Below are positions 923-6,590 of a stretch of 59,767 bases of DNA, piece after piece. Positions within the stretch are counted from its first letter, which is position 1. Each line of letters opens with the position of its first letter. The stretch lies in assembly GCA_013140575.1 (NCBI GenBank), contig JABFSN010000133.1:1-59767 (forward strand), given 5' to 3'. Made by a program: the position numbers and the translations under genes. The stretch is from Phycisphaerales bacterium (lineage in GTDB: Bacteria; Planctomycetota; Phycisphaerae; UBA1845). Under the pieces are notes generated by a model, which saw nothing but the letters and a program-made list of their open reading frames with translations, was not told the origin of the DNA and searched no databases.

Positions 923-2779
923 TCAGTTGGCCGCGATGGGGCGCCATTTGCGAATTGCGCCGACTGCGCCGGCCACGATCAGCGTGACCACCCCGCCCAT
1001 CGCCCACGCGGACGCCGCCGGAACACTAACCGCACACGCCGCGTCCGATTCGCAAATCGGCTCGTCGCAATCGGTCAACCCATTGCAATTGTTGTCCGTA
1101 TCATCGTCACACAATTCCGGCGCGGCCGCATGAATCAAGATGTTGGAATCGTTGCAATCAATGGCCGGTCCGTTCGGGCAGTCCGGCGAACCCGGATTGC
1201 CGTATCCGTCGCCGTCCCCGTCGAGACAGACCCCGGGCGGCGAGACGCCCGATACCTGATCAGCAGCCACGTTGTTCAGAACCGTCACCAACCCATCCGG
1301 GAACGTGACCTCGACTACGTCCACGACATTCGCGGCGCCGAGACCGAAATACGCCTCCGCCGGCTCCTGCCCCAGATAACTGGTCCCGGCCGCAATCAGC
1401 CGCATCTGGTTCAAACCGCCCGCCTGAATACGGACGACCGCGCCGATTGCGAAATGATTCAGTCCACCCGTCCGCGGCTGAACGACGAGGTAGTGTTGCT
1501 GCTGTCCGGGCGGCAACGTGGACTGATTCTCGAGCAGGCGCAACGGTCCGCCGCGGCAGGCCTGTACCAAATCGAGATCGCCGTCGCGGTCGTAATCGAA
1601 CGCGATCAGCGCCGCCCCCCAGAATGTGTCGTTGAACCCCACCGCGACCGACTCGTCGGAAAAGACGAACGGCGGCGCGCCGGGGTTTTGGAAGAACTTG
1701 GATTGGTCGTTGATGAACTCCTCCCCGGCCTTCCAGCCGTTGGTCGCGGCGATATCCAGCCACCCGTCGGCGTCCGCATCAAAAAACGTCGCGCCCCATC
1801 CCCAGCCGCCGTGGTCCACCCCGCTCGCCGCGGAAACTTCGCGAAACTCGAGCGTGCCACCGGACGAATCGTTGCGCAGAAGCACGTTGTGGAAGTTGAC
1901 GTTGTAGTCGATGTTGGTGACGTAGATATCGAAATCGCCGTCGTTGTCGTAATCGCCCAGCGACACGCCCATGTCGTGCATGGCGTTGGCCATCCCCGTC
2001 GCCGGCGCGACATCGACGAACGTACCGTCCGTCTGATTCCGCCAATAGCGGTTGGGCCCGTAGTCGATGGACTCGTAGAAATCACCCCACCCGTCCTCGT
2101 CGAAATCGACGAAGACGGCCTGGTGCCCCCACATTGCCGCGAGGCCCACGCCGCACGTTCCCGACACTTCGACGAACGCGCCATTTCCATTATTCAACAG
2201 CACGCGGGAACGGGAATTCCAGAACGGGACGAACAAGTCCACGTAGCCATCACGATTGAAATCGCCCGCGCACGGTCCGCTGAAATGTTGCGGTTGCAGC
2301 GCCTGCGCATCCGCCGGCATCGGCAGCATCAGTCCGGCGGCGACGGTGACGTCCGTGAATTGCGTCGGTGATTCCTGTCGGTACAGCCGAAACACCGTCG
2401 GATGCCCGATGACATCGTTGCCGACCAAAAGGTCGAGATCACGGTCGCCGTCGTAGTCAATCCACAATCCGGTTCGATTCGCGTTCATCGACGCCACCCC
2501 GGCCGCCGCGGCGATCTCCTCGAATTGCCCGTTGCCCAGGTTGCGATACAACTGGTCCGCGACGCCCGCGTCGTTGGGGATGAACAGATCGACGTCGCCG
2601 TCGTTGTCGTAGTCCGCCGCGGCCGCACCACCGCCGTGACCCGTCGTGATTGAATAGGGAAGAATGCCGCGAGCGGCCGACACATCCACAAATTGAATGG
2701 GCGGCGTCGCGCGCAGCAGGGACGCCGAATACGCAAAACACACCGGCACCGCAGTCGCCAACCAACGACGCGTTTTCAA
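923..2779 (-). CDS. exported FG-GAP/VCBS repeat protein with ASPIC/UnbV domain, MopE-like Cys repeats and C-terminal anchor
   Basis: About 618 aa from the chosen TTG start, which follows GAGGATCGAAA and opens directly on a signal peptide (LKTRRW, hydrophobic run, ending near LLRATPP). An ATG lies 72 bases further upstream but adds residues unlike a signal peptide. After the signal come several Ca-binding FG-GAP/VCBS repeats of the DxDxDG type (DYDNDGDVDLF, DFNRDGYVDLF, DYDNDGDFDIY, DYDRDGDLDLV), predicting a beta-propeller. An ASPIC/UnbV domain follows (HYLVVQPR to VTFPDG). Then a Cys/Asp-rich MopE-type stretch (CLDGDGDGYG, DCNDSN, ELCDDDTDNNCNG) and a C-terminal VPAASAWAMGG plus transmembrane helix plus RKWRP, resembling IPTL/PEP-CTERM sorting tails. 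Likely a cell-surface protein; ligand unknown. Confidence 0.85.
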   Translation of the reverse strand: MKTRRWLATAVPVCFAYSASLLRATPPIQFVDVSAARGILPYSITTGHGGGAAAADYDNDGDVDLFIPNDAGVADQLYRNLGNGQFEEIAAAAGVASMNANRTGLWIDYDGDRDLDLLVGNDVIGHPTVFRLYRQESPTQFTDVTVAAGLMLPMPADAQALQPQHFSGPCAGDFNRDGYVDLFVPFWNSRSRVLLNNGNGAFVEVSGTCGVGLAAMWGHQAVFVDFDEDGWGDFYESIDYGPNRYWRNQTDGTFVDVAPATGMANAMHDMGVSLGDYDNDGDFDIYVTNIDYNVNFHNVLLRNDSSGGTLEFREVSAASGVDHGGWGWGATFFDADADGWLDIAATNGWKAGEEFINDQSKFFQNPGAPPFVFSDESVAVGFNDTFWGAALIAFDYDRDGDLDLVQACRGGPLRLLENQSTLPPGQQQHYLVVQPRTGGLNHFAIGAVVRIQAGGLNQMRLIAAGTSYLGQEPAEAYFGLGAANVVDVVEVTFPDGLVTVLNNVAADQVSGVSPPGVCLDGDGDGYGNPGSPDCPNGPAIDCNDSNILIHAAAPELCDDDTDNNCNGLTDCDEPICESDAACAVSVPAASAWAMGGVVTLIVAGAVGAIRKWRPIAAN

Positions 2780-3075
2780 TTTTCGATCCTCGTTGCGGCC
2801 CGTTGAATTGCGATCCAACCGTGCGCCAACTCCGACCCGAGTGGCACCCACGAGCCCTACGAATCCGAATCGTACCGCATGGGCGGTCCCGGCACAAGCA
2901 AAATGCGCCTGCCCCGCGGACCGGGGGTGCGCGATGGAACCGGCAAGGTGATCCCGCTTCTGTTAGAACCGTGGGCGCAAGCCCGCGCATGGCCCGCGGG
3001 CGTTGGTCACCGGGCGTGCGCCCGGCGCACTGACAAAAACGGTCTTCGCGTACGTGACCATGAATCCGTGACGTG

Positions 3076-6000
3076 TCATTTCGACGCGTCGCCATCGCGA
3101 CCGGGCTGGACCAGCGCGTCGTAAAACCGCGCCTCGTCCACGCGCCCTCGTTGCCGCAGTTCGTCGGCCAGCGACCCGAAATCGCGACGAATCCCGAAAT
3201 ACCACCGCCCGGGATAGGCCCCGCGCGTCGCGGCCGGAACGGGTTTGAACCCGTATTCTTCCACGTCCGCCAACAGCGTGCCCATTTCGACCGGGCCGAC
3301 GTACACCACCTGCACCGCGCCGTCGCTGTCGATCAGCAAGCTGGTCGGCAACGGCGTTTCGCCCGGCTTGTATAGCAAATGGCGCAGCACGGCGTCGATT
3401 GTCTCCATCGTGGCTTCATCCGCCGTCCGGAATTTCAGACGCCGGTCTTCGCCCAGCCCGGCGACGACTTCATTGAACGTCGCCAGCGCGGCCGCATGTT
3501 TTTCCGGCTTGTCGACCGAAAGCGCGACAATTTCCAGTTTGGCGGCGTCAATCCGCTCGTGGGCCGCGGCAAGACCCTTCAGCTCGCCGATGCACGGCCC
3601 GCACCATTGCGCCCACAGGTTGACCAATCGTGCGGTCGGACGGTTCGACTTGCCAAACAATCCGCTCAATAACGTGTCGGGCAACGGCAACGGCGTCCGC
3701 AACACCACCCGCGCCGCGTCCGAAACCGCCGGCGGGGGCGGACCGGCGTCCATTTGAAACGGCTGAAACGCCGTCGATGTCGGCGCGGTCGATCCCTGCA
3801 TCAATCGGTAGCAACTTCCCGCGTCCAGATCGATCCACGTCTGCGGATCGCCGCCGGGCCAACGGACCACTACGCGATCAACCCGGCTTGCATCACCCAA
3901 CCCAAAATACAGCCGTTTGGTCGATTGCGACAAATAGCCATCACCGGCCATCAGCGTGCGTATCCAGCGTCTGTCGCCGACGGACACCTCCACCACGGCC
4001 CCGATCGCGTCCCGGTGGCACGTCGTCCCCGACAGTTCGAACGCAATGGAATGCCGCTCTCCGCCGGCGTTGTTTTGCAGGAACCGCAACTGCGGTCCGC
4101 TGCGGTTCCGCAGCCACATGTCCAGATCGCCGTCCCCGTCCCAGTCGGTCGACGCGACCGACCGGCCGTCGTCTTCGAAATCCAGACCGGTAACGGCCGA
4201 CACGTCGGCGAACGTCCCGTCCTTCAGATTCAAAAACGAAACGTCGCGCTCATGCCCGCTCCACGACCACCCCGTATCCATCAACTGCGTCATCGCCACC
4301 CAGCCGCGCACGTAGCCGTCGGTCGGGCCGCTCTCCGTCGGTGAACGCGACGCCACGCGCCGCCAGAAAAAACTTCACAAATCGTCCTTGCGATCGTTGG
4401 TCAAAAATCCGTTCGGCACGAACAGGTCGTCCCACCCGTCGTTGTTGAAATCCACGAACTTCGCACCCCACGCCCACCGCCCCATCCGCACGCCGGCCGC
4501 GTCGCTGATGTCGTCGAATCGACCGTCTCCGCGGTTCACGAACAACGAATTGCCCAGGCTGTGCCGTTGGATTTGTTCCCGCATCGACGGCGCGGCATCG
4601 GATTTGAACCGCGGTTGATACGCGATCCGCTGACCCGCCGACGAAAACATATTGCTGACGTACAAGTCGAAATCGCCGTCCCGATCGAAATCCGACCATG
4701 TCGCCCCCATCCCCGCGGCCTGATCCTCGACTCCCGCCTCGCCGGCCACGTCCACGAACTTCGCGCCGTCATTGCGATACAGGTTGTTCCGCCCGAAATC
4801 GTTGACCACGTGCAGATCGGAATCGCCGTCGCCGTCGTAATCGATCCACGTCGCCGCCAGGCTGAACCGCGTGTTGTTCACGTTCAGCCCCACCTCGGTC
4901 GTCACGTCGACGAAACCGGCCTCGCCGTCGTTCCGCAACATGTGATTCGGCGGCCCGTTGTTCGCGTCGTGAAGGGGCATCGGCACGCTGACCCCGTAAC
5001 GCAGGTTCACGTACCGGCATCCATAAACGTCGAGATCGCCGTCGAGGTCATAGTCGGCCACCGCCAGCGAATAGAACGACGCCGGCGACGACGCCCGCAT
5101 TCCGCGAAACGGCGTGAAATGCCCCCGCCCGTCGTTTTTCTGATAGACGATCGTCGGGCCGATGGCGCACAACAGGTCCTGATCGCCGTCGTTGTCCATG
5201 TCCGCCAGGATGACCCCCTTGGTGTCGTCCAGCCACGCCACGCCGGCCTCGTCGGCCGTGTCCTTGACCGTGCCGTCGCCCTGCTGCACAAGCAGTTTGT
5301 TCGGCAACCCGGTTCCCATGGCCACGTAGATGTCGTCCCGCCCGTCGCCGTTTACGTCGCCGACCGCGATCCCGTTGTGACCCATGAAATTCAGTTCGCC
5401 CAGCGCGTCGGTGCGGCCGAACCAGTATTCGCCGCCGCGGGCAAGTTGTCGCCACGCGGCCGCGTCGCGCAGGACCGCCCCAGTACAATCCACCCAAGCG
5501 CTGTTCCGCGTGTCCACCTCGCTGAACGAATCGACTTGAATGGACCCAATCAACGGATGCTCGACGCCATCGGTGGATGACCAGGCCACGCGCCAATGCC
5601 CATCGTATTGAAACGCCCGCCCGCCGTTTTTGTCCGTCGGCCGCGCGAACGCCTGAAACAAGACGTGCGTCACGAATCGCCGATCGTCGATCCGTTCAAC
5701 GCCGACCGTCTTGAATGCGAACCGCCATTCCGCGGGATGCGGAACCGCCGCCAGCAGCGAGCGCACGGCCGCTGCACGGTTACCGGCCGCCGGAATCGGT
5801 TCCCCAGCCCGCTGCCAGCGTCGTATATCGTACCCATCGATCGAATACCGCTCCCCGCCGTCCGGGCGCAGGAATTCCACGATCGCCGCGTCCGTGAAAA
5901 AACCGCGCAGCGTCTCCCCGATTCCGTCGGAATCACCGCCGGCCGCTTTCCGTAGCGCCTCCCCGAATTGTTTCAACCGGGCTGATGCGGCGACGTACGC

Positions 6001-6189
6001 CTTCTCCGTTTCCCAATCGTCGGCCAACGGATCGGCAATCGCCGTGAGCGCCTCGACGGAATCGACCGCGCCGCCGGGCGCCTGATCGGTTTGCGCATTC
6101 GCCAATCCATTGGGTGGCCAACACGACACCACGGCGATCATCGCCGTGAAGGTTCGATCCCGATTCGCGTTCTTAATCTGACCCGTCAT
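3076..6189 (-). CDS. CRTAC1-like FG-GAP/UnbV protein fused to a thioredoxin-fold (TlpA/ResA) domain, interrupted by one in-frame UGA
   Basis: Two long open stretches lie in the same frame, separated only by TGA at 4375-4377; the six codons after it (S F F W R R) lead straight into the second stretch. Start chosen at the ATG that opens a signal peptide (MTGQIKNANRDR, then a hydrophobic segment ending NGLANAQ); the longer open frame upstream covers repeat DNA. Order: signal peptide; about 200 residues of unknown helical domain; FG-GAP repeats (DVNGDGRDD, DMDNDGDQD, DYDLDGDLD, DYDGDGDSD, DFDRDGDFD); the UGA; another repeat (DWDGDGDLDMW); ASPIC/UnbV (IGAVVEVSVGDRRW to VVVRWPGG); then a redoxin domain with WAQWCGPC active site (CxxC). 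Total about 1037 codons. It is either a selenoprotein-like readthrough gene or a nonsense-mutated pseudogene; domains on both sides are intact and codon use is normal, so decay, if any, is recent. Confidence 0.75.
4347..4377 (-). promoter_or_regulatory. in-frame UGA with SECIS-like stem-loop just downstream
   Basis: Read on the minus strand, TGA is followed by 11 nt (AGTTTTTTCTG) and then GCGGCG-CGTGG-CGTCGC, a 6-bp stem with one G-U pair and a 5-nt loop whose second base is G. Bacterial SECIS elements typically have an apical loop about 16-37 nt after the UGA with a G among the first two loop bases; here the loop starts 17 nt after. GC-rich DNA makes short hairpins common, so this is a candidate only. 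Confidence 0.35.
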
Positions 6190-6590
6190 TTGTAGGGCGG
6201 GTTTTACCCGCCATCTTGTGGCACGGGCATCCTGCCCGTGTTGCCCGGGCGCGGGTGCCCCATCCATCGGGCAGCGATGTGTCGGGGCCCGATGATCGAC
6301 TCGCGAGGGGTTATCCTTCCGCGCGCCGCCGCGGGTCCGTCGGTGCGAGAATCCCTTCTGGTACGTCCGCTGCTCTGAAAACACAGTCAACTGTGACGCA
6401 CTTTCCGCCCGGAGGGCGCACGACCTTAGCCAGGGACTTCAGTCCCTGGATGACGACCTCTTTATGACCTCCGCCCGGAGGGCGGACGGACCGTGTTCGT
6501 CGCCGGCCCGGATTCCGCACTTCTTATTCATGTCCAATGGCGATTATCGCGATCGTGTTTCCTGGTGCGAGAATCCCTTTTCGAACCCAC
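6190..6590. repeat. cluster of short dispersed palindromes
   Basis: This gene-free stretch holds several short hairpins of the kind scattered through planctomycete intergenic DNA: TAGGGCGGGTTTTACCCGCC, CACGGGCATCCTGCCCGTG, CCAGGGACTTCAGTCCCTGG, and two copies of CGCCCGGAGGGCG flanking the last one. They sit between the FG-GAP/redoxin gene and the sulfur amino-acid gene. No coding potential is apparent. They could act as transcript ends or be passive repeat elements. Confidence 0.7.

Follow-up and report, generated by a model that had tools for sequence, protein, structure and literature searches.

The locus described here raises the question of whether a UGA in the middle of an otherwise open reading frame breaks a gene or encodes selenocysteine (Sec). 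The window, i.e., the whole stretch of 59,767 nucleotides analysed from a Phycisphaerales bacterium, carries a frame of 1037 codons whose sole interruption is a TGA at codon 605 (Table 1). The original prediction, made from sequence alone, had read this frame as an intact FG-GAP/UnbV/redoxin gene with coding-like codons behind the stop. Both parts of this description held. The codons following the in-frame TGA encode SFFWRR, and Pfam places the domains in the order FG-GAP repeats, UnbV_ASPIC and AhpC-TSA with its CGPC motif, the UGA lying between the start of the FG-GAP region and UnbV. An upstream in-frame TTG at 6390 represents a possible alternative start.

Table 1. Positions of the gene, its in-frame UGA, its hairpin and its protein domains in the window.
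Feature	Position	Strand	Details
Predicted selenoprotein gene	3076..6189	-	1037 residues, Sec at 605; terminator TGA 3076-3078
In-frame UGA, taken as the selenocysteine codon (residue 605)	4375..4377	-	Frame analysis and homologue alignment
SECIS hairpin	4347..4363	-	6-bp stem, 4363-4358 with 4352-4347; 5-nt loop 4357-4353
FG-GAP beta-propeller, CRTAC1-like, approximately residues 227-712	4054..5511	-	Pfam, AlphaFold, structure comparison
UnbV_ASPIC domain, residues 728-791	3817..4008	-	Pfam
TlpA/ResA-like redoxin domain, residues 855-961	3307..3627	-	Pfam AhpC-TSA, Foldseek, phmmer
CGPC redox motif, Cys863 and Cys866	3592..3603	-	Evolutionarily coupled to Sec
N-terminal signal-like segment with lipobox-like VVSC, from the ATG at 6189	6121..6189	-	Simple rule, no signal-peptide predictor

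The window protein meets the domain criterion for CRTAC1/ASPIC-UnbV proteins (FG-GAP_3, 120 bits against a cut-off of 26.9; UnbV, 67 bits against 23.4) as well as that of a thioredoxin-like domain with a CxxC motif (AhpC-TSA, 36.7 bits against 26, with CGPC). The NCBIfam models of TlpA and ResA matched it below their cut-offs, which places it outside those curated families; in total, NCBIfam returned nine families up to an E-value of 1, none above its cut-off, and no NCBIfam selenoprotein model scored above its curated cut-off. An Rfam scan of window positions 3000-6400 gave no match at gathering scores. The AlphaFold2 model, built with 28 sequences, reached a mean pLDDT of 87.0 and a pTM of 0.88, and places residue 605 in the first turn of a helix spanning residues 604-615, as its second residue. 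Signal-like N-termini were found in 32 of 37 full-length family members and a lipobox-like motif in 12, suggesting that the family might be exported, a possibility that rests on a simple rule and not on a predictor.

The gene just downstream of the predicted selenoprotein gene (window 923-2851, minus strand) encodes another FG-GAP/UnbV protein, 642 residues long and without an in-frame UGA, which shows a weak MopE-like metal-binding motif near its C-terminus, below the cut-off (25.0 bits against 27). Elsewhere in the family, three FG-GAP/UnbV genes stand in tandem, followed by a sulfatase gene (L087:544-8381, and likewise in L088 and L089); each of these tandem genes is open in two parts of approximately 640 and 220 codons, and the third was confirmed to carry UGA at the Sec site. 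At L057:1988-3850 and L063:1046-2725, genes of di-haem peroxidase families (DHOR; CCP_MauG) precede the Sec gene in the same orientation. Overall, the neighbours of the Sec gene vary, including a sulfatase downstream in L087, a peptidase in L083 and a Cys/Met metabolism enzyme in the window and L056, and no fixed operon partner was found in the few loci examined.

Conservation of the UGA and its decoding signals

Homologous loci were fetched, aligned to a profile and freed of duplicates. Removing 5 exact duplicates from the 219 loci with an aligned site left 214. Of these, 199 combined a score of at least 180 with a residue at the site, and exclusion of 10 outgroup proteins without the W-R motif gave 189 family members. 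A further 9 loci had a gap at the site, and near-identical rows are still present among the 189. UGA occupies the aligned site in 159 of these unique members, spanning Planctomycetota, Verrucomicrobiota and many genera, with Cys in 5 (L043, L180, L183, L184 and L263) and other residues (A, D, E, N, Q, R or S) in 25. Non-Cys residues thus replace Sec more often than Cys does. Within the aligned span (130,904 codons), 156 of the 159 UGA genes have no other in-frame TGA and three have one more. A conserved in-frame UGA together with Cys in some homologues is one criterion for membership among bacterial selenoproteins, and we show that the family meets it.

Narrower samples gave a similar picture. 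Among 150 relatives, 23 genomes carried a homologue at E <= 1e-60, and in the 25 of 27 loci where the site was covered it was occupied by UGA (18), Asp (2), Ser (2), Cys (1), Asn (1) and Ala (1). The named loci L056-L084, which include Planctomycetota as well as Verrucomicrobiota (Roseibacillus, Akkermansiaceae, Verrucomicrobiales), have UGA in 27 of 29 cases, the exceptions being Ser in L074 and Arg in L081. Across the phylum of the window, a homologue was present in 86 of 392 genomes. The named Planctomycetota genome of L057 (G151) shares the contig location of its selA with G360 of this sample, from which we infer that the phylum sampled is Planctomycetota. The original prediction had proposed reading the residue that homologues carry at the site and had suggested for relatives a DL-x-SFFWR motif with Cys sometimes at x. 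The motif with Cys is confirmed by L043, and UGA indeed predominates across genera and two phyla, with Cys in the five homologues named above, although Cys is outnumbered there by other residues.

The hairpin behind the UGA was found exactly as first described, with a 6-bp stem and a 5-nt loop, which starts at a distance of 17 nt from the UGA and has G at its second position. The minimum free energy (MFE) of the UGA plus 48 nt of the window is -15.8. The published bSECIS model (PMC13188914) calls for an apical loop of 3-9 nt, an upper stem of 4-16 bp, G within the first two loop positions, a distance of 16-37 nt from the UGA and an MFE <= -7.5 kcal/mol, all of which the window hairpin satisfies. 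We compared the family with a null in which amino acids were held fixed and synonymous codons were redrawn according to each gene's own usage. In a fixed register, the full 6-bp stem occurs in 113 of 159 UGA genes, far beyond the 5.5 +/- 2.2 expected by chance (maximum 14 in 500 draws), and in 1 of 30 non-UGA genes (expected 0.6). All 113 stem-bearing UGA genes have G in the first two loop positions. The single non-UGA gene with the stem is L043, which encodes Cys (TGC) at the site with its SECIS hairpin intact and is likely the fossil of a recent Sec-to-Cys change.

This count covered three loop lengths (3-5 nt) at a single stem position, without a systematic search elsewhere. Under these constraints, 35 of the 159 UGA members lack the full 6-bp stem; most of them belong to divergent subfamilies, for which no other SECIS was established. 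Covariation was assessed on 90 aligned UGA genes, which remained of 96 distinct Sec sequences after exclusion of those whose loop has 4 nt (L083, L087-L090 and L092). There, 97.6% of the cells were paired, the score was 0.349 compared with 0.161 after shuffling and at most 0.195 after sliding, and 48 cells had changed on both sides of the stem compared with 14.9 expected by shuffling. A separate alignment to the window sequence comprised 27 of 35 named sequences (without L069, L079, L081, L082, L085, L088, L090 and L092). The apical base pair connects the second positions of two codons, and the RNA therefore constrains the protein at residues 611 and 613. In 114 Sec proteins, Arg occurs at these residues only with Ala, Thr or Pro (39/39) and never with Val, and Gln occurs mostly with Val (50/56); Arg/Val is the most frequent combination (4/18) among the 18 proteins that lack both Sec and Cys.

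A search for sel genes, also proposed at the outset, showed that the source genome (5.05 Mb in 268 contigs, 96.5% complete) is equipped to decode Sec. It carries selA (561 bits; cut-off 268), selB (305 bits, 342 when joined; cut-off 242), selD (366 bits; cut-off 125) and a tRNA-Sec with anticodon tca (66 bits; gathering score 47), and thus meets the criterion of a Sec-decoding machinery. Its selD gene (L018:1501-2421) has an in-frame UGA of its own within SCAGU, from which we infer that SelD is itself likely to contain Sec.

The family and the machinery also co-occur. In the phylum sample, selA was detected in 79 of 86 homologue-bearing genomes compared with 163 of 306 others (Fisher p = 3e-12), and in 40 of 41 compared with 85 of 176 when the comparison was limited to genomes of high quality (completeness >= 90%, contamination <= 5%; Fisher p = 3e-10). 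The 86 genomes include G000, G338, G433, G438, G479 and G481. The seven in which selA was not detected are all drafts, G438 among them being 91% complete. Two of the genomes lacking selA have Cys forms, L263 in G275 and L180 in G406. Moreover, selA was present in 14 of 16 genomes of relatives with the UGA form and in 27 of 32 genomes of the named UGA loci. The selenoprotein reading has thus been supported by all proposed tests that were run. We consider it very probable that the UGA encodes selenocysteine, given that the machinery and signals are shown; Sec insertion itself remains an inference, without protein-level or expression evidence.

Sec, the CxxC motif and coupled residues

The fate of the redoxin CxxC motif follows that of residue 605. 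Where a redoxin domain is aligned, 124 of 127 Sec members retain CxxC, as does the one Cys protein, compared with 2 of 18 members with neither Sec nor Cys. On a fasttree phylogeny of 120 redoxin-bearing members, Sec changes at least eight times, and among eight independent pairs Sec and CxxC changed in the same direction in five, showed no difference in three and never went in opposite directions (p = 0.0625, fasttree only). Besides residue 605 itself, the positions whose conservation drops most without Sec or Cys are Lys160, Cys863, Ser644, Cys866, Glu869 and Gln525; for instance, Lys160 falls from 86 of 95 to 0 of 15, and Ser644 from 111 of 113 to 4 of 18. Since the non-Cys replacements mostly accompany loss of CxxC in redoxin-bearing members, they likely reflect loss of function and are not evidence against Sec.

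These observations suggest a mechanism, every step of which is inferred. SelB with Sec-tRNA(UCA) would bind the mRNA hairpin that starts 11 nt past the UGA and deliver Sec, yielding one full-length, exported protein in which Sec would sit at the N-terminus of a short propeller helix, within the motif DL-U-SFFWR. The product would most likely work as a periplasmic or surface oxidoreductase, whose helix-capping selenolate acts on an as yet unidentified substrate that the propeller holds, and whose own C-terminal TlpA/ResA-like CxxC domain would re-reduce the Sec. That Sec and CxxC form a working unit is inferred because Sec, CxxC, Lys160, Gln525 and Ser644 are lost together. A redox cycle between the propeller Sec and the protein's own thioredoxin-like domain, inferred from this co-loss, is as likely as not or slightly more likely.

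Alternative readings

A referee might first suspect a nonsense mutation or a sequencing or assembly error, i.e., a pseudogene or a misread codon, as the original prediction had also allowed. Viewed in isolation, one stop interrupting an open frame in one draft genome would look like such an error. This reading is all but ruled out, and we rejected it, because independent assemblies from two phyla share UGA at the same codon in the 159 of 189 members, and because the 432 codons beyond it are open and conserved. A split into two separate proteins, with a stop at the UGA and a restart behind it, so that the propeller and the UnbV-redoxin portion would be made separately, finds some support in an in-frame GTG seven codons past the UGA (ORF 3076-4356). 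Such a split is nonetheless very improbable: that GTG belongs to the SECIS hairpin loop, two separate products would interrupt the propeller and leave the covarying hairpin unexplained, and the 30 members with a sense codon at the site read straight through. It could also be argued that UGA is read through as another amino acid, by a change of the code or natural suppression, given that sequence by itself cannot equate read-through with Sec. We regard this as highly unlikely. UGA terminates this very gene and many of its homologues, and neither Trp nor Gly occurs at the site among the 189 members; SECIS, tRNA-Sec, selA and selB are moreover present.

A rival that remains possible accepts Sec as real and assigns it the role of a metal ligand or structural residue of the propeller, rather than that of a redox catalyst working with the CxxC domain. 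FG-GAP repeats bind metal ions, which counts in its favour. So do 27 Sec members without an aligned redoxin domain, which keep Sec without redoxin; some of these are cut fragments, and the redoxin-less proteins of L087-L090 and L092, with 876 residues, are whole. In such members (e.g., L087) a different protein would need to serve as the reductant, and no thioredoxin domain was found by Pfam in the three genes downstream in L087, where such a partner was sought. Against a metal-binding or structural role stands the observation that Sec and CxxC are mostly lost together in redoxin-bearing members, including in five of the eight independent pairs.

Relation to known families and implications

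The nearest solved fold to the window protein is that of CRTAC1 (cartilage acidic protein 1; FG-GAP plus UnbV/ASPIC; PDB 9etn), with a VIA-align Z of 41.0, an rmsd of 2.3 over 455 residues, 24% identity and a phmmer E-value of 5e-13. Unlike the window protein, CRTAC1 has no thioredoxin-like domain in the matched part, and no Sec has been reported for it in the open-access literature searched. The C-terminal domain resembles the TlpA/ResA thiol:disulfide oxidoreductases (TlpA 1jfu, phmmer E 4e-8; Foldseek matches to ResA and TlpA; CGPC kept). In contrast to those proteins, it is fused to a propeller, and the Sec lies approximately 260 residues upstream of CxxC in another domain. The remaining PDB relatives are general propellers.

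A 2026 catalogue (PMC13188914) lists 119 prokaryotic selenoprotein families or subfamilies in its Table 1, among them Sec-containing thioredoxin-like families such as UGC-containing TlpA, the Redoxin family UxxC and Prx TxxU. The window protein shares with these a UGA followed by a SECIS and a thioredoxin-like domain; however, their Sec motif is in the thioredoxin-like domain, whereas here that domain has plain Cys and the Sec is in the propeller. No FG-GAP, UnbV or CRTAC1-like family appears in that table, and no report of such a selenoprotein was found in the open-access literature searched (including PMC12013277 and PMC4807772), with the constraint that the S9 table of planctomycete candidates in PMC4807772 was not covered and could list a member. 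Within that literature, we consider it likely that two things are new, namely the protein family and a Sec outside the thioredoxin fold combined with a thioredoxin-like domain bearing plain Cys. The insertion system is of the ordinary bacterial type and is not new.

A bolder reading, to which we give no more weight than to its opposite, is that the family represents a new kind of selenium active site on a CRTAC1-like propeller, with Sec605 at the N-terminus of a helix, a pocket for which Lys160, Gln525 and Ser644 are candidates, and a TlpA-like CxxC domain within the protein as its reductase. The family would then be an exported selenoenzyme of Planctomycetota and Verrucomicrobiota at large, with more than one copy in some genomes (e.g., the three tandem genes of L087-L089).

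If the selenoprotein reading is true, the family would be a widespread addition to bacterial selenoproteins, on an FG-GAP/UnbV propeller absent from the 119-family catalogue. Gene callers that read UGA as a stop would split such genes and record each as defective or as a pair of genes. Natural experiments are also available in the family: Sec has been lost repeatedly, often along with CxxC, and one Cys form still carries its SECIS. To our knowledge, no function has been established for bacterial CRTAC1-like proteins, and the family offers a handle on it.
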